This document shows positions 13,825-35,659 of a DNA stretch of 35,659 bases, piece after piece. Source of the DNA: a virus; IMG/VR virus record IMGVR_UViG_3300029267_003811, positions 1 to 35,659 of that record; one strand, 5' to 3'. The notes beneath the pieces are model-generated. The model searched no databases and was not told the origin of the DNA. It was given only the letters and a program-made list of their open reading frames with translations. A program made the position numbers and the translations under genes. How positions within the stretch are numbered: the stretch's first letter is position 1; each line of letters begins with the position of its first letter.

Positions 13825-15798
13825 TTGGAATTGTCCCCAGTCACTGATCTCACCGCGGTCCAAATGGTCAATCCCGCCGGCCGGCAGGTGGAGGTCGCCG
13901 CCGAGCGGGTAGACTACCTGCTCGGCCACGGATTCCGCTACCCGACGATCGCGGACGTGCTCGCCTCGACCTCGCCGCCTCCCCCGCCTCCCCCGTCGCC
14001 TCCGCCTTCGCCGAAGGCGGCGAAGGCAGAGAAGGCGGCGGTGGTGGGGGGGGCGCCCCCCGCGGCCGCGCCTCCGCCGCCGCGCTGCCAGATATCTCAC
14101 ACTCTGATGGAGTTCGACGTCTCGCCGCGCTGCACCCGCAAGTGCAAGTTCTGTGCCCCGGGCGTCCCAGCCGGCCGGCGCACGCTGAAAAGCGGCCTGT
14201 CCCTGGAGGCGCACAACCGGGTGGTCGACGAACTCGCCGAGCTGGGTTTCAATCGCCCGGACCGCTGGGTGGTCTACTGCGGGCACGGCGACCCGCTGCT
14301 CTGTCCCTGGCTGCGCGAGGGCCTGCGCTACACCGCCAAGCGCCTGCCGGACTGCAAAATGACCGTCTACACCAACGGCGACCGGCTCGACGAGGAGATG
14401 TGCCGCTTCTTCGAGGCCATCGACCTCCACGGTCTGTTCTGGGACAACTACGGCCGGCGCCGCAAGGTCCGCGGCAAGAAGCGCAAGGCCACCGGCACGC
14501 TGGCGGACATCCGCGAGCCGGAGCTCTACGAGGACGACGCCACCACCGCGCGCGTCCTGGCGGCCATCCGCGACTCGGAGATGGATCCGGACCGGGTCTA
14601 TCTCGTGGACCACACCGCCGGCGGCGAGCCGCAGTTCTATTCCTCGCGCTGCTCCTCGCTCTACAAGCCCGACGTCTCAAAGTGGCTGGACAAGCCCTGC
14701 GGCCTGCCCAGCTACAAGCTGATGCTCACCGATGACGGCCGGGGCGGCCCTGCCTGGATGGTCTGCTGCGAGGACCTGGGCCGCCAGTCGCTCACCCCCT
14801 ACGTGCCCCTCAAGCAGTTGCTGGCCGACTGGCAGCCGAAGATCGAGGCGCTGCTGGCCGGGCGCCGGCGCGAGGCCTGGCCCATCTGCCTCAAGTGCGA
14901 TCGGGACGAGTCCACGCCGCCGGCGCTGGGCTGCACCACCAAGCTGGTGGGCTCGCGGCTCTGGCCGCCGCCGGCGCGCCTCCCGGCCGTGCCCAAGGGC
15001 AAGCGGCGGCTGGTGATCATGCCGCTGAACGCGCCCTGGCGCGCGCTCGGCGAGCTGGTGGCCCGCGCGGTGGACGAGCTCTCCACCGTGCCCGGCGAGA
15101 CGCTGCTGCTCTGGAACGACCCCCAGCCGGCCCCGGAGAGCCTCCGCGGCCCCGGCCGCGTGGTGTGGGAGTCGCCCAGCTACGGATGGAAGGGCATCGC
15201 CGTCGGCCTGGGCCGGGCCTACCGCTACGCGCTGGAGAAGGGCTTCGACTGGACAATCAAGCTTGACACCGACACCGCCATCCTGGCCCGCGGATGGGAC
15301 GCGGCGCTCTGCCACGAGTGCCCCGCCGACGCCCAGATCGGCACCTACATGGACGAGTCGCTTACCGGCTCGATGGACGCCGGCGCCCAGGACGTCTTCG
15401 GCCTGTTCCTGCGCGAGCACGGCCATTACTGCCGCTGGGCGCGCGGGATGATCCGTCGCAACCGCCGCGGCTGGGACCACCTCCAGGGCGGCCTGTACGT
15501 CTTCGGCCGGCAGGCCATGGAGAAGATCGACCGCGTGGTCGGCCTCGAGGCCGACGACCAGGAGGTGCTCTCCGAGGACGACCGCATCGGCGAGGACGTG
15601 TATTTCGACTCCAAGGCCAAGCTCTCCGGCGTCCGGCAGTCCGACTGCCGGCGGGTGCGCATCTGGTTCCGGCGCGAGGGCGCCTCGATGCGCGAGCGCT
15701 TCATTCGCTATCACCGGGACGCCCGCGGCGTGGTCGCGGTGCACCCGGTCAAGGACGCCGCGCTCCTGGAGCGGCTGCTGGAGGAGGCCCTCGGGTGA
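13825..15798 (+). CDS. Radical SAM-glycosyltransferase fusion with a small N-terminal phage domain
   Basis: This 657-residue protein starts at TTG 13825 (a second TTG is at 13831), with AGAGAGGAG as ribosome site. Residues 1-50 (VQMVNPAGRQVEVAAERVDYLLGHGFR) resemble a small domain found in phage head-tail clusters. Residues 51-88 are a Pro/Ala linker. A radical SAM domain follows, with C103-x3-C107-x2-C110 for the [4Fe-4S] cluster. A SPASM-like cysteine set is present at C292, C314/C315, C355 and C358. From about residue 390 a GT-A glycosyltransferase fold follows, with DTD at 481-483 (metal and sugar nucleotide) and a downstream DDRIGEDVYF. The reaction is unknown. It leads the sugar cassette and overlaps the next gene by GTGA. 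Confidence 0.75.
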   Translation: MELSPVTDLTAVQMVNPAGRQVEVAAERVDYLLGHGFRYPTIADVLASTSPPPPPPPSPPPSPKAAKAEKAAVVGGAPPAAAPPPPRCQISHTLMEFDVSPRCTRKCKFCAPGVPAGRRTLKSGLSLEAHNRVVDELAELGFNRPDRWVVYCGHGDPLLCPWLREGLRYTAKRLPDCKMTVYTNGDRLDEEMCRFFEAIDLHGLFWDNYGRRRKVRGKKRKATGTLADIREPELYEDDATTARVLAAIRDSEMDPDRVYLVDHTAGGEPQFYSSRCSSLYKPDVSKWLDKPCGLPSYKLMLTDDGRGGPAWMVCCEDLGRQSLTPYVPLKQLLADWQPKIEALLAGRRREAWPICLKCDRDESTPPALGCTTKLVGSRLWPPPARLPAVPKGKRRLVIMPLNAPWRALGELVARAVDELSTVPGETLLLWNDPQPAPESLRGPGRVVWESPSYGWKGIAVGLGRAYRYALEKGFDWTIKLDTDTAILARGWDAALCHECPADAQIGTYMDESLTGSMDAGAQDVFGLFLREHGHYCRWARGMIRRNRRGWDHLQGGLYVFGRQAMEKIDRVVGLEADDQEVLSEDDRIGEDVYFDSKAKLSGVRQSDCRRVRIWFRREGASMRERFIRYHRDARGVVAVHPVKDAALLERLLEEALG

Positions 15799-16403
15799 GG
15801 TACGCGCTGGTCGGCAACGGCCCCAGCGCCGCCGGGTGCGGCGCGGAGATCGACGCGCATGACCGCGTGGTCCGCTTCAACGCTTTCCCGATCTCCCAGG
15901 CCGCCGATGCCGGCCGGCGTCTGGACGTCTGGGTGTGGTTCGGATGGCTGGACTATCTCGCTCGCATGGGCGGCGCGCCGCGGGGCGAATACCAGGTGTG
16001 GATGCCGCTGCCGCTTTCCTGCTGCGGCTCCGGCGGCGTGGGCGACGCCGCGCGGATAATCGAGCAGGCCCGCGGCCGGCGCATCCGCTGGGTCTCCGAG
16101 GCCTGGCGTCGCGGCGAGGTGAGCTTCCTGGGCGGCCGTGATCCTTCCAGCGGCTTCACCGCCGTGGATATGGCGATCCGTCTGGGCGGCGCCACCGAGA
16201 TAACGCTCTACGGCTTCGACGCGGTGGCCCCGGACCGCCCCGGCTTCCACGACGCCCGCGGTCCGTTCCCTTTCATCGGCACCGCCCACCCCTGGCGCGC
16301 CGAGAAGCGGGCCTATGCCGACCTCGCCGCGCGCGGCCTGTGGATGGGCGAGCGCTGGCCGGTGCGGGTCCGCTGGCCCTCGCGGCCGGAGATCGAGTCG
16401 TGA
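15795..16403 (+). CDS. GT29 sialyltransferase-like glycosyltransferase
   Basis: This 202-residue protein starts at GTG 15795. The N-terminal block YALVGNGPSAAGCGAEID and HDRVVRFNAF matches the L-motif of family GT29 (VGNs....G.eID.hd.V.R.N). Residues 117-142, PSSGFTAVDMAIRLGG through LYGFD, match the S-motif (PstG......a...d.v.vyGF). A histidine in GFHDARG (about 153) could be the late catalytic His. GT29 enzymes use CMP-sialic acid as donor, and the next gene is a CMP-sugar synthetase. There is no membrane anchor, so it acts in the cytoplasm. The acceptor is unknown. Confidence 0.72.
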   Translation: MRYALVGNGPSAAGCGAEIDAHDRVVRFNAFPISQAADAGRRLDVWVWFGWLDYLARMGGAPRGEYQVWMPLPLSCCGSGGVGDAARIIEQARGRRIRWVSEAWRRGEVSFLGGRDPSSGFTAVDMAIRLGGATEITLYGFDAVAPDRPGFHDARGPFPFIGTAHPWRAEKRAYADLAARGLWMGERWPVRVRWPSRPEIES

Positions 16404-17134
16404 GCGTCAACGTCGCGGTGGTCACCGCCCGTCACCACTCGCCGGGCCGGCCGGAGAAGAACCTCTTCGAGCTCCGCGGCCGACCGCTGCTGGCTTACCC
16501 GGTGCTGGCCGCGCAGGGCTCGGCCCGGGTTGACCGGGTGTACTGCTCGACCGACGGCGAGGCCATCGCCGCCGCCGCGGCCGAGATGGGCTGCGAGATC
16601 GTCTGGCGGCCCGAGGGTGTGGCCGGCGACGTGCCCCACAAGGTGGTCATCCGCCACGCCGTCGAGGAGATCGCCGGCCGCCTGGGCGGCCTGTCCGCGC
16701 TGGGCTCGGTGGTGGTGCTGCTGGGCAACACGGTGATGGTCGACGCCGCGCTGATCAGCGCGGCGCTGGCCATGCTGGAGCGCGAGAGGGATATCGACGG
16801 CGTGCTCTCGGCCTGGCGCGCCCAGGACGATCACCCGCTCCGCGCGCTGGAGGAGGGTCCCGACGGCCTCGTGCGCCCCTACGGCGGCGGGCCGCGGGAC
16901 GTGGACTCCAACCGGCAGAGCTACCCGCCGGCGCTTTTCTACGACCAGGGGGTGTGGGCCTTCCGCGCCGGCTGCGCGCTGCGCGAGGACGGCCCGTCGC
17001 CCTGGACCTGGATGGGCCGGCGCTGCCGGGCCATCGTCCGCGAGTGGGTCACTGGCCGCGACGTGCACGAAGAGCTCGATGTGGCCGCCGCCGAGTGGTG
17101 GCTGGACCGGGAGGGCATCCCTTGCCGCAGATGA
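16400..17134 (+). CDS. CMP-sugar (NeuA-like) cytidylyltransferase
   Basis: The 244-residue product starts at GTG 16400 (GTGA overlap). VTARHHSPGRPEKNLFELRG is a variant of the NeuA nucleotide-binding loop (ARGGSKGIPRKNL), keeping the Arg and the KNL. RPLLAYPVLAA, DRVYCSTDGEAIAAAAAEMG and the late VHEELDVAAAEWWLD complete the family pattern. NeuA couples CTP to sialic or related nonulosonic acids to give the CMP-sugar. The usual LQPTSPLR block is replaced by LLGNTVMVD, so substrate choice may differ. No genes that synthesise the sugar acid itself are present, so it would have to come from the host. Confidence 0.75.
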   Translation: MSVNVAVVTARHHSPGRPEKNLFELRGRPLLAYPVLAAQGSARVDRVYCSTDGEAIAAAAAEMGCEIVWRPEGVAGDVPHKVVIRHAVEEIAGRLGGLSALGSVVVLLGNTVMVDAALISAALAMLERERDIDGVLSAWRAQDDHPLRALEEGPDGLVRPYGGGPRDVDSNRQSYPPALFYDQGVWAFRAGCALREDGPSPWTWMGRRCRAIVREWVTGRDVHEELDVAAAEWWLDREGIPCRR

Positions 17135-17742
17135 CCGAGGAGCGCGACTTCATCGCCGCGCGCCTGGCCGGGCGGGCCGGGCGCTTCCTGGACGTCGGAG
17201 CTTACGACGGGGTCACCGACTCCCTGACCCGGGTGCTCTTCGAGGCCGGCTGGTCCGGCGTGCTGGTCGAGCCCGACCCGCGGAGCTTCCTGGCCCTCTT
17301 CGCCAACTACGGCCCGGATATCCCCGGCGCCGAGCGCGTCGAGCTGGTGGCTGCCGCGGTGCTGCCCGACGCCGGGCTCGCGCGCTTCTGGATTTGCGAG
17401 GACCAGAGGGAGACCTCCACCGCCGCCGAGCGCTTCCGCGACTCCTTCGCCCGCACCCACGGCGCGAACTATCGCCGCGCCCACTGGCTCCACGGTCTCA
17501 CCCCCGAGGCGCTGCTGGCCGCCTTCCCCGGCGAGTTCCGCTTCCTCAACGTGGACGCCGAGGGGTTCTCCTGCGAGCTCTTCGCGCGGCTGCTGTCCGC
17601 CGGGGTGAGCGGCCTGGAGCTGGCCTGCGTCGAGCGCGACCACCAGCGCCAGGGCCTGGCCCGGGACGCGGCCGCCGCCGCCGGCCTGAAGCCGGTGCTG
17701 GAGACCGAGGTCAACCTGCTCTTCGGCCGGGAGGACGGCTAG
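17131..17742 (+). CDS. FkbM-family SAM methyltransferase
   Basis: This 203-residue protein starts at ATG 17131 (ATGA overlap). Motif I is FLDVGAYDGVTDSLTR at residues 17-32, followed by GWSGVLVEPDPRSFLALFAN, where the acidic residue binds SAM. FLNVDAEGFSCELFARLL is the conserved late FkbM block. Family members methylate hydroxyls, often on sugars or glycolipids. In this cassette it probably methylates a glycan, as capping of phage or surface sugars, but the substrate is inference. It is coupled at both ends. Confidence 0.78.
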   Translation: MTEERDFIAARLAGRAGRFLDVGAYDGVTDSLTRVLFEAGWSGVLVEPDPRSFLALFANYGPDIPGAERVELVAAAVLPDAGLARFWICEDQRETSTAAERFRDSFARTHGANYRRAHWLHGLTPEALLAAFPGEFRFLNVDAEGFSCELFARLLSAGVSGLELACVERDHQRQGLARDAAAAAGLKPVLETEVNLLFGREDG

Positions 17743-18674
17743 TGGGCATCGCCTGGGGCGTGGACGTGTTCAACCCTTGGGGGCGGCGGACCACCGTCAC
17801 CCGCGAGCGCCTGGCCTGGCTGCTCAAGGCGGGCTTCCGCCTGCCCGCGCTGCGCACCGTCGGCGAGGCCCCCGACGGCGCGGTGCTTCTGGACCTGGCC
17901 GACTGCGGGGTGGGCGACTGTTGCGCGGCGCTCGCGGCGGCCCGCTGGCTGTCCGATGCCCCGGACGGCCGGCCGCTGTGGGTGGCCTGCCGCGCCTCCT
18001 GCGCCTTCCTCTTCGCCGGCCTGGCCGAGCGGGTGATCACCGGCGAGCCGCCGGCCACCGGCTGGGGGCTGCGCCTGGACGCCGCCGCCGCGCTGCAGCA
18101 GGGGGCCCTGGACCACGCCGACCGCTACTCGGCGGTGGAGCTGCTCTGCGAGCTCGCCGGCGCCCACCCCGCGGTGCCCTGCTACGAGCCGCCGCCGGCG
18201 GATGTGGCGACCGCCCGCGCCGGCTCCCGCCCGCTGGTGCTGCTGCAGCCGCTCTCGTCCTGCCCGGCCAAGGACTGGCCGCTGGAGTGCTGGTGCGCGC
18301 TGGCCGCCCGGCTGGTCGACGGCTCGCCGCCGGCGGCCGTAGCCGTCACCCACTCCGGGCCCATCGACTGGCCGGACGGCTCGCTGCTCCCGGACGTCCT
18401 CGACCTCTGCGGCGCCCCGCTGGGCCGCGTCGCCGCGGTGGTCGCCGCCGCCGCGCTGACCGTCGCCCCGGACTCCGCGATCTTCCACCTCTCCGCCGCG
18501 GTGGGCGCGCCGGCGCTGGGCCTCTTCGGCCCCACCGGCGGGGCCGAGCACTGCCGGTGGTACCCGCAGGCCCGGGTGATCCAGGCCGAGCCGCCCGACG
18601 GCCTGGCGGCGCTCTCCGTCGGTCGGGTGGAGGACGTGTGCCGCGAGATGCTGGAGGAGGCCGGCGATGGGTAA
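17742..18674 (+). CDS. GT9 (heptosyltransferase)-like glycosyltransferase
   Basis: The 310-residue product starts at GTG 17742 (TAGTG overlap). The N-terminal 60 residues are unusual (VDVFNPWGRRTTVTRERLAW). Then LLDLADCGVGDCCAALAAARWL takes the place of the GD.... opening of GT9 enzymes. The C-terminal half is more typical: VLLQPLSSCPAKDWPLECW, then APDSAIFHLSAAVGAPALGLFGPT and HCRWYPQ, which is the nucleotide-sugar site of heptosyltransferases. The acceptor is unknown. It is last in the sugar cassette and runs 8 bases into the next structural gene. Confidence 0.7.
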   Translation: MGIAWGVDVFNPWGRRTTVTRERLAWLLKAGFRLPALRTVGEAPDGAVLLDLADCGVGDCCAALAAARWLSDAPDGRPLWVACRASCAFLFAGLAERVITGEPPATGWGLRLDAAAALQQGALDHADRYSAVELLCELAGAHPAVPCYEPPPADVATARAGSRPLVLLQPLSSCPAKDWPLECWCALAARLVDGSPPAAVAVTHSGPIDWPDGSLLPDVLDLCGAPLGRVAAVVAAAALTVAPDSAIFHLSAAVGAPALGLFGPTGGAEHCRWYPQARVIQAEPPDGLAALSVGRVEDVCREMLEEAGDG

Positions 18675-19989: not shown

Positions 19990-20312
19990 GCATGGCCGCC
20001 TACCTCGCCGCCCGCACCCGCCTCATCGCCGGCCAGCGCGTCCCGGACGTGCCGGGCATCGAGGCCGCGCGCTGGCGCTGGCTGTCCGAGCGCCACGGCT
20101 ACTTCGAGGCAGAGGGCAAGCTCGACGGCGTGGAGGCCGCCCCGGCCGCCTACCCCAACGGTGTGAGGCTCGACACCCCCTGCATCCGCCCCTTCCAGGA
20201 CGGCCTGCCCGAGGAGCCCGACGAGCTGGCCGGGGTCACCGACGCGGAGCTGACCGCTGAGGTCCGCCGGCGCGGCCTGACCGTCTCCGGCGAGGCGGTG
20301 CCCCTTGGCTAA
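19986..20312 (+). CDS. Hypothetical neck-region protein
   Basis: This 108-residue protein starts at GTG 19986 (GTGA overlap); ATG 19992 is an alternative. It begins with a helix (AAYLAARTRLIAGQ), contains WRWLSERHGYFEAEG, and ends in TDAELTAEVRRRGLTVSGE. No family was recognised. It lies between the TM protein and the 784-residue tail protein and may be structural. Confidence 0.55.
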   Translation: MSMAAYLAARTRLIAGQRVPDVPGIEAARWRWLSERHGYFEAEGKLDGVEAAPAAYPNGVRLDTPCIRPFQDGLPEEPDELAGVTDAELTAEVRRRGLTVSGEAVPLG

Positions 20313-22659
20313 CACGTACAACGATCCCAACTTCAACATCGACACCGACTGCTCGGTGGATGATCTTACCACCATCAAGGGCTCGGCGCCGGACCTGGAT
20401 GACGTCATCTGGATTTACAATGACGCCACGCTCTCCTGGACGGATGAGGATGACGCCGTTGAGCTGCAGTGCAAGCAGATTTGCTACGGCGAGACCTCCG
20501 GCGGCGCGGCTGATGCGGGTAAGCGCTTGGGCCACCGCAGCTTCACCAAGGCCGGGGTGGAGATTGTCTTCAAGGGCGACGCCTCTGACCACACGCTCTC
20601 TGGCGAGTGTGCCAACCCGGCCAGTGCGGATGACTCCTCCAAGGACATCACTCTCTACGCCCGGGGCACCCTGGCCAATCCCATAGTGTTCCGGAACGAC
20701 AACAACGCCTACGACGCTGCCCACCAGTGGAGCCACTATCATCAGTACGGATCATTCGATCAAGACTACGTGCACGATAAGTATGCTACTGCGGCCTATG
20801 ACCTGTACTGTGCAGATAGCCGTACCAACGCGGCAGAGCAGGTGTTTGACCACCTGACGGTCACTGACTGTCAGCACATCTTTTATATGATGGACAACGG
20901 GTATAAGGACCTGCCTTTGAAGGCTAGGTTCATAACCTGTCACATGGAGAATGTTGTCTGTCACATCGTCCGTAGTTACGGCAATATTCTCAAGCTCGCT
21001 GCGACCTTTGACCTCAGCGGGTTCTACGGCGTGAACAGCGGCGGAAGCTCTCTAAACTGGTACTTCGCAGGAGGCAAACTCAACGGCGGACCGGGCAAGC
21101 TCTACTTCGGAACGTGGCTTATCTCCCTCAGCGACATTCGGCCGACTGAGGTTGTCCCTGCCGACCTCGCCGCCGCTGACGCCGGCACCGGTGAGACGCT
21201 CACTGTCACCTGGTCCAATGGGGCCAGCTACGCGGCCGGCGACCTGGTGTACATCTACAACAACGCCGGCGATGGGCTCCTGTCTGTCGGTGACGCCACC
21301 GAGGGCAGCCTGGCTGTACCTGGTCTCACTGATGACCAGAGTTACACGGTCTACGCCAAGGCGACTAGTGACGGTTCCCATTTCAGCGCGGCGAGCGATA
21401 CGGACACCGCTACGCCGACGCACAGTGGCTTTGATTTTCCCGAGGCAAGCAACGTCACCGACGATGATACCGTGGACGGCGTGGCCGGCACCCTGGACCT
21501 GCCGGCGCTCAACAAGGTGGCTCCCTCGGATACGCTCCGCGGCGTCGCTGGCACCCTGGACCTGCCGGCGCTCAACAAGGTGGCGCCCTCGGACACGCTG
21601 GAAGGTGTGGCCGGCACCCTGGACCTGCCGGCGCTCAACAAGGTGGCGCCCTCGGACACGCTGGAAGGTGTGGCCGGCACCCTGGACCTGCCGGCCATCA
21701 GCGCCGTCGACCCGCTGGACACGCTGGAGGGCGCGGCCGGCACCCTGGATATCCCGGAGCTGGCCGCCGTCCTGGACACCGATACGCTCCGCGGCGTGGC
21801 CGGCACCTTCGACGCGCCCGCTTATGCGGCCGCCTACGAGGCCGGCCGGAACACACTCATCGATACCGCCGACGTCAAGGCCGGCGAGGACATCCACCAG
21901 TTAGGTGCGCACCGCACCGGCGCGCTGGACATCACCGCGCCGGGCACCCCGGTCATCGCCTGCAGCGCCACCGGCGTCACCGTGGACGGCGACGCCGGTG
22001 CCACCAACTCGGTCTATTTCCGCCAGTACGGCCCGGCCGCCGCCCCCTGGGCGCTGCTGGGCTCGCGCGCCGGCGACGGCGAGGTGGCCTACGGCGACCT
22101 CTCCGATGGTAAGTACATGTTCATGGCGGTCAGCGCCGACGCCGCCGGTAACCTTTCGTTGCCTTCGGCCGCCCGGCCGCGCTACGTCGGCGGCGATGAG
22201 CGCTCGATTCACGAGCGGGTCTGGCTCGACGCCGCGGCGGATCTCGAGGCCGAGGGGTCCCTGTCCAAGTGGCGCCTCGACCGCAAGGAGAACCGCATCC
22301 AGGACATCCTCCGCGGCGGCGAGGCCCCCGACGGCAGCCTGCCCTACCTCTGCGCCGAGTGGGGCCGCGAGACCGGCGAGGCGGCGGTCGACGAGTACGA
22401 CGAGGCCCGCGGCCGCCTGACCGTCTACCTGTTGATCAAGGACCGCGCCGGCGAAAAGGCGGGCACCTGGGACCTGGCCCGCTACGTGGCGGTCGTCCAG
22501 CAGACCTTGGAGGGCGACCGCACCCGCGGCGGCCTGGTCCTGGAGTGGTTCTGTCGCCGGGTGGAGTGCAGCCGGGACCTGGTCCGGCCCTACCGGCTGG
22601 CGGCGGTGGAGTGCGAATACACGTTCAACCCCGAGCTTGCGGCTCGGGTGAGTGTGTGA
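20305..22659 (+). CDS. Mosaic tail protein: decoration/adhesin-like body with a tail-terminator-like end
   Basis: The 784-residue product starts at ATG-like TTG 20305 (reads TTGGCTAAC). Residues 1-280 look like a beta-rich adhesin (DITLYARGTLANPIVFRNDNN; many Asp, His, Tyr) and have lower GC. Residues 285-370 resemble an Fn3 domain (LTVTWSNGASYAAGDLVYIY ... SYTVYAKATSDG). Residues 388-512 hold six 21-residue repeats (DTLxGVAGTLDLPALNKVAPS). Residues 545-620 look like a second Fn3-like unit. Residues 640-784 (RLTVYLLIKDRAG, LAAVECEYTFNP) have the strand pattern of siphophage tail terminators, the protein expected in this slot. The fusion is inference. Confidence 0.6.
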   Translation: MANTYNDPNFNIDTDCSVDDLTTIKGSAPDLDDVIWIYNDATLSWTDEDDAVELQCKQICYGETSGGAADAGKRLGHRSFTKAGVEIVFKGDASDHTLSGECANPASADDSSKDITLYARGTLANPIVFRNDNNAYDAAHQWSHYHQYGSFDQDYVHDKYATAAYDLYCADSRTNAAEQVFDHLTVTDCQHIFYMMDNGYKDLPLKARFITCHMENVVCHIVRSYGNILKLAATFDLSGFYGVNSGGSSLNWYFAGGKLNGGPGKLYFGTWLISLSDIRPTEVVPADLAAADAGTGETLTVTWSNGASYAAGDLVYIYNNAGDGLLSVGDATEGSLAVPGLTDDQSYTVYAKATSDGSHFSAASDTDTATPTHSGFDFPEASNVTDDDTVDGVAGTLDLPALNKVAPSDTLRGVAGTLDLPALNKVAPSDTLEGVAGTLDLPALNKVAPSDTLEGVAGTLDLPAISAVDPLDTLEGAAGTLDIPELAAVLDTDTLRGVAGTFDAPAYAAAYEAGRNTLIDTADVKAGEDIHQLGAHRTGALDITAPGTPVIACSATGVTVDGDAGATNSVYFRQYGPAAAPWALLGSRAGDGEVAYGDLSDGKYMFMAVSADAAGNLSLPSAARPRYVGGDERSIHERVWLDAAADLEAEGSLSKWRLDRKENRIQDILRGGEAPDGSLPYLCAEWGRETGEAAVDEYDEARGRLTVYLLIKDRAGEKAGTWDLARYVAVVQQTLEGDRTRGGLVLEWFCRRVECSRDLVRPYRLAAVECEYTFNPELAARVSV
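21466..21840 (+). repeat. Six tandem 63-bp repeats within the tail gene
   Basis: Units begin at 21466, 21529, 21592, 21655, 21718 and 21781. Units 1-3 are nearly identical; 4-6 drift. Each encodes 21 residues with a GVAGTLDLPA core. The repeats are in frame, so copy number can change without breaking the gene. Similar GT-rich repeats occur in phage tail and fibre proteins. Confidence 0.9.
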
Positions 22660-29455: not shown

Positions 29456-30079
29456 ATGGGGATTCGCAGCTTAGCGGGCGCACTGATCTCCCTGGCCGTG
29501 CTCATCGCGGCCGGGTGCGTGACCGAGCGGGTGCAGACCGCCGCCCGGCGCGCGGAGCTCGCCGCCAAGGACCGCGGGGAGAGGGGCGACGCGCTGCTGG
29601 CCGCGGTCGGCCGGGAGATGGAGGAGGCCAACAAGGAGCTCGGCGCCGACGCCATCCCCGCCGAGGCCGTGCCGCTGACCGTGGAGGCCGCGGCCGAGAA
29701 CGCCGCGGGCATGGTCGAGGAGCGCGAGGCCCGGACGCAGGTCCTGGCCTTCTTCAAGACGCTGCTCACCGCCGCCGGGGACAAGTGGCCATGGCTGGCC
29801 GGGGCGCTGGGCGTGGGCGGGACCATCATCGAGCTGGTGCGCCGGCTCCTGGCCAAGGGCAAGATGCTGGTCAGCGCCAGGAAGGCGGTCACCGCGGCGA
29901 TCACCCTCACCCAGGCGGTCAAGGAGAAGCTCAAGGCCGGCAAGTTCACGCTGGCGGAATTCGAGGCGCTCTATCGCCAGGGCAAGGCCGAGGGCGAGGG
30001 CTTCGTCGCCGGCAGCCGCGAGCTCTATGAGGAGTACCTCAAGCTCAAGGCCGAGTGGAAGGCCAAAGGCGCGGCCTAG
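29456..30079 (+). CDS. Lipoprotein with a second hydrophobic segment (lysis or virion-associated)
   Basis: This 207-residue protein starts at ATG 29456. A lipoprotein signal is clear: basic start, hydrophobic LAGALISLAVLIA and the lipobox AAGC with C at about 21. Residues 22-100 are acidic helices. Residues 115-133 (WPWLAGALGVGGTIIELV) are a second hydrophobic segment, followed by basic helices. A lipobox plus a second membrane segment is seen in unimolecular spanins, but those normally have the TM at the C-terminus. The position after the fibre suits lysis, but it is not proven. Confidence 0.6.
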   Translation: MGIRSLAGALISLAVLIAAGCVTERVQTAARRAELAAKDRGERGDALLAAVGREMEEANKELGADAIPAEAVPLTVEAAAENAAGMVEEREARTQVLAFFKTLLTAAGDKWPWLAGALGVGGTIIELVRRLLAKGKMLVSARKAVTAAITLTQAVKEKLKAGKFTLAEFEALYRQGKAEGEGFVAGSRELYEEYLKLKAEWKAKGAA

Positions 30080-30363: not shown

Positions 30364-30400
30364 TTACAAAACAGCTGCTCTACCGTTGAGCTAGGGTGGC
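30364..30400 (-). other. attP: attP core: 5' half of tRNA-Thr(TGT)
   Basis: Read on the minus strand, this segment gives an acceptor-like GCCACCC, TA, D-stem GCTC, loop AACGGTA, GAGC, A, an anticodon stem GCTGT and the loop TTTGTAA with anticodon TGT. This is the first 37 bases of a tRNA-Thr. The expected ACAGC and T arm are missing, so it is not a working tRNA. The integrase gene ends 9 bases away. Phages of this type insert by recombining such a core with the host tRNA gene. Confidence 0.75.
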
Positions 30401-30408
30401 TCTAGGCA

Positions 30409-31548
30409 TCAGCGCTTGCGCGACTTGCGCTCCTTTCGGCCTTTTCGGGCCGGTTTCCGGCAGTCCCCTGTCCTCCCCGAACTCGCTACCCGTTGGGAGC
30501 GCCTGGGGGCCGTTGGGGCCGAACCTGGACGCAAAGTGGACACCGCCTCGGCCACCATTTTCCGCGTCCTGTCGGGCAACTGGCGCGCCTCTTTGGCCCA
30601 GTCGAATCCGAGCACCAGCCGCGCGTAGCGCTCGGTGGTCACCACCGAGCTGTGCCCCAGCCAAGATTTGACCCGGTACAAGTCTACACCGGCGGCCACC
30701 AGCCAGCAAGCGCAGGTGTGCCGGAGGGCGTGGGCGCCTATGCGTGGGAGCCCCATACGCGCCCGCAGCGCGGCGAGGTGGTTGCTGAGCCTTGAGAGAT
30801 AGGGCCAGGGGATATCTCGCAGCCTGGGCGACAGGACGGCCAGCAGCAGCGGCCCTGCGGGCTGGACCAGCCAGTCTCTCGCTTTCCGCTCCCTCAACTC
30901 GATGCTTCCCGCTACTACTTGCTCCGGCGCGAGCGCGCGGAGCTCGCCCAGGCGCATGCCGGTGGTCACCAGCACGTCCATGGCGTCGCGGATCGCCGGC
31001 TTGGCCGCCTCCCAGAGCGCCGCGTACTCGGCCGGGCGCAGCCATCGGGCCGGGTGCTTCGTCTCGCGCAGATTCCGGAGCCGGGTCGCGGGGTTCGCCT
31101 CCAGGTGGCCCTTGCGGACCTCGGCGGCCAGGAAGGCCCGGACCTCGGCGATCTCCTGGTTACAGGTCCGGGCGCTCACCGTGCGCGCGCGCTTCTGCCG
31201 GTAGCGCTCCAGCCAGGCGGCGGTGAGCGCCTCGGTGCTGGCGCGGCCCACCAGCTTCCCGACCGTGGCCAGCGTGCGCCGGACGTTCCGCACGTAGCCC
31301 CAGCGGTGGTCGACCTCCAGGTCGCGCAGGTACTCCTCGGCGGCCTCGGCCAGCGGCCGGGCGGGCCCGGCCACTCCGGCGCGCTGGTTGATCTTGCGCG
31401 CGGCCACGTCGGCGGCCAGGGCGAGCGCCTCACGCCGGGTCCCCACGATGCGCACCCGCCGGCGCGTGCTGCCCGCGCCGCCCTCGCGATAGTCCACGCG
31501 CCAGATCTCCCGGCCGCGGGCGTCGGTGCCTATTTTGCGGACGGCCAT
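30409..31548 (-). CDS. int: Tyrosine-family integrase
   Basis: The 379-residue product starts at ATG 31548, sharing one base with the upstream stop (TAATG). The N-terminus has a basic arm-binding region (RREALALAADVAARK) and a core-binding domain (EYLRDLEVDHRWGYVRNVRRT). The catalytic set is present: R199 in TGMRLGELR, H273-x-x-R276 in HALRH, H299 in WLGHS and nucleophile Y308 in TTERYARL. It inserts the phage into the host tRNA gene. The last 40 residues are a basic tail (CRKPARKGRKERKSRKR). Confidence 0.93.
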   Translation of the reverse strand: MAVRKIGTDARGREIWRVDYREGGAGSTRRRVRIVGTRREALALAADVAARKINQRAGVAGPARPLAEAAEEYLRDLEVDHRWGYVRNVRRTLATVGKLVGRASTEALTAAWLERYRQKRARTVSARTCNQEIAEVRAFLAAEVRKGHLEANPATRLRNLRETKHPARWLRPAEYAALWEAAKPAIRDAMDVLVTTGMRLGELRALAPEQVVAGSIELRERKARDWLVQPAGPLLLAVLSPRLRDIPWPYLSRLSNHLAALRARMGLPRIGAHALRHTCACWLVAAGVDLYRVKSWLGHSSVVTTERYARLVLGFDWAKEARQLPDRTRKMVAEAVSTLRPGSAPTAPRRSQRVASSGRTGDCRKPARKGRKERKSRKR

Positions 31549-32045
31549 TACTCGGGGGGTTGCGGGGCTTCTGCCTCTTCCGTCAGTGCTTTTATTCCCT
31601 CATCGGCGCAGCGGATATCGTATTCGGCCGCGACCCGGATAGCGGCGAGCCCGGCGAGCCTTCGCTGCGCGTTGAGCTTGAGAGTCCTTAGCCTCCAGAT
31701 GGGCTTGTGGTTAGGCTGGAGTTTCCTCTCTCGCTTTCCTCTCACAAGCCAGAACGTTTTGTCCCCGCGACATTTAGGGCAGACCACAGGAAAAGGAGTA
31801 ACGCCCGTGCCCTCGCAGGAAGGGCATGGAATGTGTTCCTGGGTTATTTCCTTCTTTTGTTTGTTCCAAACCCATACGGGTATGATCTTACGTCCGCGAC
31901 AAGAGGGGCAGCGTTCCTTCACTTCCCCGGTACCCTTGCATTTTTCGCAGGGGACCTTGGTTATTTCTATGATCTTCTTCTCCGCCTCTCCTGCCACCGC
32001 CGCCAGCGGCAGCACCAACGCCAGGATCATCAGCGCGCGTTTCAT
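31548..32045 (-). CDS. Exported DnaJ-zinc-finger-like protein (lysogeny operon)
   Basis: The 165-residue product starts at ATG 32045, behind GAAGGAGGAGAC, with ATGA overlap. A signal peptide is evident: MKRALMILALVLPLAAVAGE, with an AVA-G-like cleavage site at about 18. The mature part carries four CxxC pairs in two DnaJ-like sets (CEKCKGTG ... CPSC; CPSCEGTG ... CPKC). It lacks a J domain. The DNA is less GC-rich than its neighbours. Being exported and expressed with repressor and integrase, it could change the lysogen's envelope or exclude other phages, but that is inference. Confidence 0.65.
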   Translation of the reverse strand: MKRALMILALVLPLAAVAGEAEKKIIEITKVPCEKCKGTGEVKERCPSCRGRKIIPVWVWNKQKKEITQEHIPCPSCEGTGVTPFPVVCPKCRGDKTFWLVRGKRERKLQPNHKPIWRLRTLKLNAQRRLAGLAAIRVAAEYDIRCADEGIKALTEEAEAPQPPE

Positions 32046-32362
32046 GTCTCCTCCTTCTTCTCAATGGCCCTCACCAGCCGCACCAGCACCACCGCTCCTC
32101 GCAGGAGCGGGCGGGCGCCGAGGAAGATGATAGCTCCCCCGATCGCGATCGCCAGGGACACGGCGGCGGCCGCGGCGGGGAACTCCTCTCGCTGCGCCAT
32201 GCAGACCAGCAAGCCGATGCCGCCGGCCAGCACGGAGAACGCGCCGACGAGGTGAAGCATGCTCTCCAGGATGCTGACCGACGAGAGGAAGGAATACAGG
32301 ACCGGGTCGGTCTCGGTCTGCCACCAGGGCGGGGGCTTCGGTGGGCGCGTCCCATTCATCAT
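32042..32362 (-). CDS. Two-TM membrane protein in the lysogeny operon
   Basis: A 106-residue protein starts at ATG 32362, overlapping the repressor stop; ATG 32359 is equally possible. The ribosome site is GGAGG. After a Pro-rich N-terminus (PPKPPPWW), two hydrophobic spans are seen: LESMLHLVGAFSVLAGGIGLLV and AAAVSLAIAIGGAIIFLGA, with a charged C-terminus (EKKEET). It is holin-like in topology, but its place in the lysogeny operon suggests superinfection exclusion or a moron role. Confidence 0.6.
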   Translation of the reverse strand: MMNGTRPPKPPPWWQTETDPVLYSFLSSVSILESMLHLVGAFSVLAGGIGLLVCMAQREEFPAAAAAVSLAIAIGGAIIFLGARPLLRGAVVLVRLVRAIEKKEET

Positions 32363-32856
32363 CCATCCTCCGCCGCCCTTCCCGCGCCGTAGCCGGGCTC
32401 GCGCTCGCGGGCCCGGTCCTCGGCCGTGCGCTGCGGCCGCGGCTGGCCGTCGTTCACGCAGTAAGGCACTCCATCCTTGTATGTGTTTCGGCACCGAGGA
32501 CATATCCAGTATCCCTTCGTGTAGCGCTTCACGCAGTCGGTCAGCCGGGGTAAAGGCTCCCCTGGGTTGGGTTCGCGCGGCTGGGGATTTTCATCCGAAA
32601 GCCGCCACCCGATCCGAGGTAAGTACTCCGGGCTGCCGGCTACCGCGCGGGATATTTTCGCCAGAGTGTCCGCGCGCACCGCTCCGCCGTTCTCCAGTTT
32701 CCATATCGTTTTTTCGGTCAGGCCTGTTTCCCGGGCGAGTTGCGCCCGGCTTATGAAGCAGTTCATTTCCCGTAGCTCCTTGACCTTGGCCCCGATACGA
32801 GCCCAATTCATCGGCTTCTTGTGTTCCGGAACTTTTCCGGAGTTTTTCCTTGACAT
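32359..32856 (-). CDS. Phage repressor: XRE helix-turn-helix with a C-terminal zinc ribbon
   Basis: The 165-residue product starts at ATG 32856 (in-frame alternatives include ATG 32811). The N-terminus has a helix-turn-helix: VKELREMNCFISRAQLARE, GLTEKTIWKLENGG. The C-terminal third has GYWICPRCRNTYKDGVPYC, a zinc ribbon, not the LexA-like peptidase domain of lambda CI. No ribosome site is evident before ATG 32856, and it starts where the rightward promoter's -35 begins. A leaderless message, as for lambda cI from PRM, is possible. It is first in a coupled leftward operon and probably maintains lysogeny. Confidence 0.75.
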   Translation of the reverse strand: MSRKNSGKVPEHKKPMNWARIGAKVKELREMNCFISRAQLARETGLTEKTIWKLENGGAVRADTLAKISRAVAGSPEYLPRIGWRLSDENPQPREPNPGEPLPRLTDCVKRYTKGYWICPRCRNTYKDGVPYCVNDGQPRPQRTAEDRAREREPGYGAGRAAEDG

Positions 32857-32873
32857 TACGGTAAAATCCGGTA
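32824..32873. promoter_or_regulatory. Candidate repressor operators (CCGG-centred half-sites)
   Basis: TTCCGGAA (32824-32831), TTCCGGAG (32835-32842) and ATCCGGTA (32866-32873) are similar 8-mers. The first is a perfect palindrome. Centre distances are 11 and 31 bases, close to one and three helical turns. TTAC-G-GTAA (32856-32864) is another dyad in the same interval. The set overlaps the promoter and the repressor's first codons. Confidence 0.5.
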
Positions 32874-32877
32874 CACT
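32850..32877 (+). promoter_or_regulatory. Rightward early promoter (PR-like)
   Basis: TTGACA at 32850-32855 is a perfect -35. TACACT at 32872-32877 matches four of six positions of the -10, with 16 bases between. Transcription would start at about 32884 and enter the 32907 gene. The -35 overlaps the repressor's start codon on the other strand, and operator-like sites lie on both sides. Confidence 0.75.
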
Positions 32878-32906
32878 GTTGCTGTGGCTGCTGGAGGTGG
32901 CTGGAA

Positions 32907-33536
32907 ATGACCACAATCAATCTGGTGACCGGAGAGGGGCGGACGGCACGCGGGCGCAAGGCCCGGCCTCCAGCAGCCACTGTAGGTTCCGTCCGTCCTT
33001 CCCCGGCCGTTGCCGTTTGGGGGCTCGGCCCCCAGGGGGGGGTATTGGACGTGCCGACTCCGCCGACGGACCTGCCCGCGCGCGTGCGGGGGCGGCTCCA
33101 GCGGATAGCCTACGCCTGCGCCTTCGCCCGCGCCGGAGAGGCCGGCGGAGCCCGCCGCTGCCCGCACAAGGGCTGCCCCCTCTGGCCCCACCGCCTGGGC
33201 CGCTGGGCCGAATACCAGGGGACCAACGCGCCCGAGGGCGAGATGGTTGCCTACCTTGACGGGCTCACCGGGGGACCCCCGCCGGCGGCCCGGGTCGAGT
33301 GCGTAGCTAAGGGCGATCCGCGCCCGGTCCAAGTCCCGCTCTTCGGCGCACTTGCGAAAGCCAAAAATGACGCTTTCGGGCCTGCCGGTAGGGTGGTACC
33401 CACAGCCCCTAATTTCAGAGTTAGCTACGCGCATTGCGAGTCCTGCGGCCGGGAGTTCTCGCCGCGGCGCAAGAGCGCCAAGTACTGTTCCCGGGCCTGC
33501 GCTGACCGCGCCTACCGGAAGAGGGTACGGGCGTGA
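32907..33536 (+). CDS. Early zinc-finger protein, first gene of the rightward operon
   Basis: The 209-residue product starts at ATG 32907, behind GGAGGTGG. The C-terminus is a zinc finger: CESCGREFSPRRKSAKYCSRAC, then ADRAYRKRVRA. A middle segment, RRCPHKGCPLWPHRLGRW, adds cysteines and histidines. The N-terminal 50 residues are Pro/Ala/Arg-rich. It occupies the cro position but has no helix-turn-helix. It probably binds DNA as an early regulator. It overlaps the next frame by GTGA. Confidence 0.65.
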   Translation: MTTINLVTGEGRTARGRKARPPAATVGSVRPSPAVAVWGLGPQGGVLDVPTPPTDLPARVRGRLQRIAYACAFARAGEAGGARRCPHKGCPLWPHRLGRWAEYQGTNAPEGEMVAYLDGLTGGPPPAARVECVAKGDPRPVQVPLFGALAKAKNDAFGPAGRVVPTAPNFRVSYAHCESCGREFSPRRKSAKYCSRACADRAYRKRVRA

Positions 33537-35518: not shown

Positions 35519-35641
35519 ATGGGACGCAACACGAGAGGCAAGCGGGACGGGACCGGGCCCCACAAGGGCAGCTACCAGCGCCGCACCAGCGGCACGGGGC
35601 GCCGGCAGGCCGCCGGCCAGAAGTGCCCGAAGCGGCGCTGA
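35519..35641 (+). CDS. Small basic protein at the circle junction
   Basis: This 40-residue protein starts at ATG 35519, behind AGGAAAGGAG. It is Gly/Lys/Arg-rich, with repeated GR/RR and one Cys (GQKCPKRR). Most of it is repeated at 1-116 because of the circular overlap. It links the early operon across the junction into the genes at 131 onward. The function could be nucleic-acid binding. Confidence 0.6.
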   Translation: MGRNTRGKRDGTGPHKGSYQRRTSGTGRRQAAGQKCPKRR

Positions 35642-35659
35642 GGGGTGCGCCGAGCGTGA
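35526..35659. repeat. Terminal direct repeat, right copy
   Basis: Identical to 1-134. See the left copy: it marks circular closure, so the 35519-35641 gene is the complete version and 1-116 is its second appearance. Confidence 0.95.

Follow-up and report, generated by a model that had tools for sequence, protein, structure and literature searches.

An envelope-directed gene pair, predicted from sequence, in the repressor-integrase operon of a high-GC phage and its possible role in superinfection exclusion

The minus strand of the viral record IMGVR_UViG_3300029267_003811, the whole of which (35,659 bases, GC 70.8%) was analysed and is referred to here as the window, carries in order a repressor gene (32359-32811), a gene for a 106-aa protein with two hydrophobic spans (the two-TM protein, 32042-32362), a gene for a 165-aa protein with a DnaJ-type zinc motif and a hydrophobic N-terminus (the zinc protein, 31548-32045), and a tyrosine integrase gene (30409-31548), which is the last of the coupled genes. 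The repressor has a Cro/C1-type HTH domain, recognized by Pfam as HTH_26 (28.4 bits, cut-off 22) and HTH_3 (27.9 bits, cut-off 23), and a C-terminal zinc-ribbon-like CxxC pair; an alternative ATG is found upstream at 32856, and the GC content of the gene (63.6%) is also under the genome average. The integrase was identified by PF00589 (E 2.8e-14) and phrog_1 (E 2.7e-43). An initial annotation of this DNA had placed two open reading frames at 31548-32362 in a repressor-integrase operon and had described them as coupled to both neighbours; both were located on the minus strand, and the coupling is visible at each joint. A first ATGA, at 32362-32359, combines the repressor stop codon TGA with the two-TM start, a second, at 32045-32042, combines the two-TM stop with the zinc gene start, and the TAA of the zinc gene and the ATG of the integrase gene share one base, at 31548, in a TAATG. 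GGAGG-type ribosome sites are present upstream of the two-TM and zinc genes, and none was found upstream of the integrase gene. Neither terminator-like sites on the minus strand of the operon nor a sigma-70-like promoter on that strand ahead of the repressor gene could be found. On the divergent, lytic side, a sigma-70-like promoter matching 10 of 12 consensus bases lies on the plus strand at 32850-32877, beside tandem direct repeats of TTCCGGA at 32824-32845 that are possible operators. Judging from this layout, both genes are likely to be co-expressed with the repressor and would be transcribed in the lysogen. A perfect 14-base inverted repeat (32884-32897 and 32967-32980, with a 69-base spacer) surrounds the start of the first lytic gene (32907, plus strand).

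An exact 134-base repeat at both termini (1-134 and 35526-35659) points to a genome that is probably complete and circularly permuted. Directly after the integrase stop codon, the minus strand at 30364-30400 contains the 5' half of a tRNA-Thr(TGT) gene up to the anticodon loop, which is presumed to be the attP core; since this site is intact within the record, it argues for a free phage genome and not an excised prophage with flanks. Exact copies of a 30-mer of attP were present in just two contigs of the genome collection, in each case within a tRNA-Thr(TGT) gene, and both genomes belong to one phylum, of which 39 genomes were examined. The 37-base attP with up to three mismatches was found in 0 of these 39 genomes, the 30-base part with up to three mismatches in five, and the terminase gave no match in any of them. 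Among viral contigs, the attP 30-mer had 0 matches, and no relative was confirmed with the zinc protein, the two-TM protein, the integrase, the terminase, the major capsid protein or the DnaB helicase, in scans that relied on identical 8-residue peptides or tblastn similarity and that distant relatives could escape. The terminase, capsid protein and integrase have distant matches only. Therefore, as the whole phage is nearly an orphan, the lack of relatives reflects sampling more than anything particular to these genes.

The N-terminus of the zinc protein (MKRALMILALVLPLAAVAG) is the most hydrophobic among the 33 open reading frames tested. When the protein's own residues were shuffled 20,000 times, only 0.18% of the shuffles reached this value, the assessment being a hydropathy test and not SignalP. 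By eye, a positively charged start, a hydrophobic core and an AVA-G site can be discerned, and a Sec-type signal peptide covering approximately residues 1-18 is predicted, so that the protein would be exported, as the initial annotation had proposed. The DnaJ-type motif named there also holds at the level of Pfam: PF00684 (DnaJ_CXXCXGXG) matches residues 33-96 with an E value of 9.4e-9 and 35.8 bits against a gathering cut-off of 32.7. Eight motif cysteines (33/36/46/49 and 74/77/89/92) form two similar CxxCxG modules, in which xG follows each of the four CxxC pairs and the final G is replaced by K in motifs 2 and 4 (CPSCRGRK and CPKCRGDK); zinc binding is predicted. No J domain was detected with Pfam, the NCBIfam DnaJ model covers residues 21-97 only (34.7 bits, cut-off 377.2), and the motif starts are spaced 13-28-15, compared with 17-22-14 in a bacterial DnaJ (L025). 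By score, the protein is thus a member of PF00684 and not a DnaJ. The families of anti-TRAP (PF15777) and BSD2 (PF25436), the latter a CxxCxGxG chaperone family that lacks a J domain, match below their Pfam cut-offs. The zinc protein has CxxCxGxG-type modules in common with DnaJ, BSD2 and anti-TRAP; it differs from DnaJ in its lack of a J domain and its motif spacing, and it has a predicted signal peptide. From residue 20 onward the protein is basic (30 K+R, 19 D+E), and a basic C-terminal region follows the two modules.

The zinc gene also stands apart in composition, with a GC content of 57.0% and a GC3 of 65.7%, the second lowest GC3 among 35 open reading frames, and its low GC and GC3 suggest that it is acquired cargo. 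The GC and GC3 of the two-TM gene are 67.6% and 88.8%, respectively, which are not low, and the earlier remark that one of the two genes has lower GC applies to the zinc gene. The GC minimum of the genome is elsewhere, at 20450-21350 within a large open reading frame (20305-22659), where 498-base windows fall to 54.2%; the GC of this stretch is below that of the zinc gene. Other searches with the zinc protein yielded the motif and little else. A phmmer search of the PDB returned weak zinc-motif matches only, the best (E 0.083) to anti-TRAP, and a single-sequence AlphaFold2 model had a pLDDT of 38, from which no structural inference was drawn. An HExxH peptidase motif is absent, no PADLOC anti-phage defence profile matched significantly (best E 0.026), and neither part of an Ltp-type protein was seen, as there is no cysteine before residue 33 for a lipobox and no Pfam match for the repeat domain. 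With tblastn, no match was obtained in plasmids, and two phage records were matched over the motif only (E 9e-3), in a hypothetical protein or Q-like gene of E. coli phages. It has been reported that gp45, a protein of DnaJ type, was likened to the antiterminator Q (PMC5313236). A second CxxCxGxG protein (229 aa) is encoded in the early region of the window at 1471-2160 on the plus strand; it has no signal-like N-terminus, and what it has in common with the exported-type zinc protein is the motif (47% over 36 columns).

The initial annotation had further called a CxxCxGxG domain outside the cytoplasm unusual, and this part of it did not stand. In a survey of 39 genomes from one bacterial candidate phylum, PF00684 matches were found in 37 genomes, with 78 matches listed. 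Twenty regions, which together contained 21 of these 78 matches, were examined, a non-random choice that favoured frames unlike plain DnaJ. Six of the proteins are DnaJ, as their J-domain N-terminus shows, and one looks like UvrA, these names being taken from N-terminal sequence. All of the 13 others, which come from 10 genomes, have a signal-peptide-like start, 12 according to the hydropathy number and L011 on visual inspection when read from an internal start. Several of these, for instance L014, L015 and L018, resemble the zinc protein in combining a signal-peptide-like N-terminus with four CxxCxGxG-type motifs, but the three named are approximately 275-280 aa long with C-terminal motifs, and the similarity is at the motif level only. 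Predicted export of a CxxCxGxG domain is thus common in the surveyed phylum, a statement about bacterial and not viral proteins, and therefore the argument from rarity fails: being DnaJ-like and exported is not by itself a mark of strangeness, since such proteins are ordinary in some bacteria. In the open-access literature searched, no description of an exported CxxCxGxG protein of a phage was found, nor any report combining a DnaJ-like protein, a prophage and superinfection exclusion.

The two-TM protein shows two hydropathy peaks, in accordance with the two membrane spans first proposed for it, and AlphaFold2 modelled it as a helical hairpin with helices at residues 20-56 and 63-105 (pLDDT 80). 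Visual inspection shows two basic residues ahead of the first helix and six after the second. As basic residues mark the cytoplasmic side according to the positive-inside rule, both ends are probably inside, leaving an outer loop of few residues and a basic C-terminal tail in the cytoplasm. Nothing in Pfam, PHROGs, PADLOC or NCBIfam matched above cut-off; the sole Pfam line was DUF2269 (E 0.043, far under the cut-off), and no holin match appeared in Pfam, PHROGs or NCBIfam. A tblastn search against phages gave no match, and the model had 0 matches at E <= 0.001 among the predicted viral structures of BFVD. Hydropathy thus speaks for envelope targeting of both proteins, and the predicted structure does so as well for the two-TM protein. 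Apart from matches to the zinc motif, no collection searched yielded a homologue of either protein.

Cargo genes between repressor and integrase are an arrangement of known kind. In TP901-1, the order is cI, ORF3, ORF2 and int, in which ORF3 contains a HELGH zinc motif and is ATGA-coupled to cI. ORF2/3 are described as identical to SieF7/2AB, a membrane-associated protein and a zinc-motif protein; with both genes cloned together, phages 62601 and 66901 showed reduced plating, and resistance to P087 and WRP3 was complete (PMC7693887). The similarity to the pair studied here includes two small genes in the repressor-integrase slot with equal polarity, the first of them ATGA-coupled to the repressor. 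However, in TP901-1 it is the zinc-motif ORF3 that adjoins cI, whereas in this phage the membrane protein adjoins the repressor and the zinc protein is predicted to be exported. TP901-1 ORF3 has no signal-like N-terminus, and ORF2 has one borderline hydrophobic window. In Tuc2009, whose gene order is int, Sie2009 and repressor, a membrane-directed product is likewise encoded between integrase and repressor, but Sie2009 is a single gene whose product has one N-terminal hydrophobic span, no zinc motif and a chance-level match to the pair (E 3.1). TP-J34 has the order int, ltp, an open reading frame with a metalloproteinase motif, and repressor (PMC3952083). Its superinfection-exclusion lipoprotein Ltp is an exported lysogeny-module product encoded between int and repressor, as the zinc protein would be, but Ltp is a lipid-anchored repeat protein, while the zinc protein lacks a lipobox cysteine and instead has a zinc-type domain. 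With blastp, no match of the pair to TP901-1 ORF2 or ORF3 was obtained at E <= 10, and comparison with the slot proteins of TP901-1 and Tuc2009 gave chance-level matches only (best E 2.3). The pair thus resembles a Sie pair by position and, judged by sequence, does not belong to a Sie family. Furthermore, in the study that covered TP901-1, three genes between int and repressor in Dub35A were expressed and had no effect on any phage tested (PMC7693887), and the slot position is therefore a hint of exclusion by analogy and not proof. Integrase relatives did not lend themselves to a survey of the slot, because int and the repressor gene are oppositely oriented in both records examined, Asapag and Validus; on the basis of these two phages, the repressor-integrase layout is not common to integrase relatives.

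Superinfection exclusion is a reasonable guess for the function of the pair, considering the known exclusion genes in the equivalent slot of other temperate phages, and it is the reading we tentatively adopt, with somewhat less than even confidence. As no homologue indicates a function, this reading rests on slot position and topology. The two genes would be cargo of the lysogeny operon, read together with repressor and integrase in the prophage state, and both products would be made for the host envelope: the two-TM hairpin would sit in the inner membrane, the signal-peptide protein would be exported and would fold about zinc through its two CxxCxG modules, and the two, which may interact, would together obstruct at the membrane the DNA entry or the entry proteins of another phage. 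The gene order and the start-stop overlaps, which tie both genes to the translation of repressor and integrase, are consistent with this, as are the predicted envelope targeting, the composition of the zinc gene, whose low GC and GC3 suggest acquired cargo, and the slot and polarity shared with the exclusion genes of TP901-1, Tuc2009 and TP-J34, one of these being a membrane and zinc-motif pair. Several observations point the other way. Neither protein is homologous to a family of Sie, defence or holin proteins, the few residues of the two-TM outer loop offer little surface to partners outside, no minus-strand promoter was found, and the Dub35A genes occupied the slot without conferring resistance. 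In addition, Asapag and Validus, with related integrases, do not share the layout, and the precedents come from low-GC Gram-positive hosts, whereas this high-GC phage presumably has a host of high GC. If the pair does exclude phages, a slot known here from dairy phages would extend to a high-GC phage, and the exported CxxCxGxG domain would gain a role in phage entry. A more specific version, to which we give a slim chance, is a novel two-part exclusion system in which an exported basic protein with a double zinc module and an inner-membrane hairpin protein perhaps grip the incoming DNA or its entry channel on the outer face. If true, this would be the first case, in the open-access literature searched, of a CxxCxGxG zinc domain acting outside the cytoplasm to exclude phages; the pairing of an exported CxxCxGxG protein with a membrane hairpin varies a known arrangement in a way not encountered in that literature.

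Alternatively, the pair might serve lysogenic conversion without exclusion, altering envelope physiology, for example by protecting or folding exported proteins or by handling metal or redox stress, so that the phage would gain through host fitness. The abundance of exported-type CxxCxGxG proteins in one bacterial phylum means that the gene could come from a host repertoire, and the low GC of the zinc gene and the sub-threshold BSD2 match also fit; however, no close host homologue was found, the 39 genomes yielding a single motif-length match (E 9.8e-4), and we regard conversion as rather unlikely while taking it seriously. The composition and the absence of relatives could also be read as neutral or decaying cargo without a selected function, given the mosaic composition, but both frames are intact, with ribosome sites, exact coupling and complete motif cysteines in both modules, which makes such decay improbable.

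The tight translational coupling to repressor and integrase could instead indicate a part of the lysogeny switch that senses an envelope signal and adjusts the activity of either protein. The slot proteins of TP901-1 and TP-J34 that carry metalloproteinase motifs resemble repressor-cleaving ImmA-type proteins. The zinc protein, in contrast, has no HExxH and is predicted to lie outside the cytoplasm, away from the repressor, and the two-TM protein has no recognizable sensor or effector domain; a switch function is thus decidedly unlikely. Small holins can have an N-in/C-in hairpin topology, and the size and predicted topology of the two-TM protein fit small holins in general, so that it might be a class II-like holin with the exported protein as a lysis factor, the more so as no endolysin or holin was named among 20 other open reading frames scanned against PHROGs. 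This we consider very unlikely: the pair lies in the repressor-integrase operon on the strand opposite to all late genes, there is no holin family match, the partner has no catalytic domain, and another lipobox protein with a hydrophobic segment (29456-30079, plus strand) is encoded at the end of the late module, the usual place of lysis genes. That open reading frame, with the lipobox LIAAGC and no PHROG or Pfam match, is a candidate for a lysis or spanin-type gene.

Elsewhere in the window, a run of sugar-related genes occupies 13825-18674 on the plus strand and separates the major capsid gene from the tail genes. It includes a radical SAM domain (PF04055) at the front of a 657-aa open reading frame, a sialyltransferase-like GT29, a cytidylyltransferase, a GT9 heptosyltransferase-like protein, and an FkbM-type methyltransferase that is slightly below its cut-off. 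To find a glycan-decoration cassette among the structural genes of a 35-kb phage seems more unusual than to find the envelope pair.
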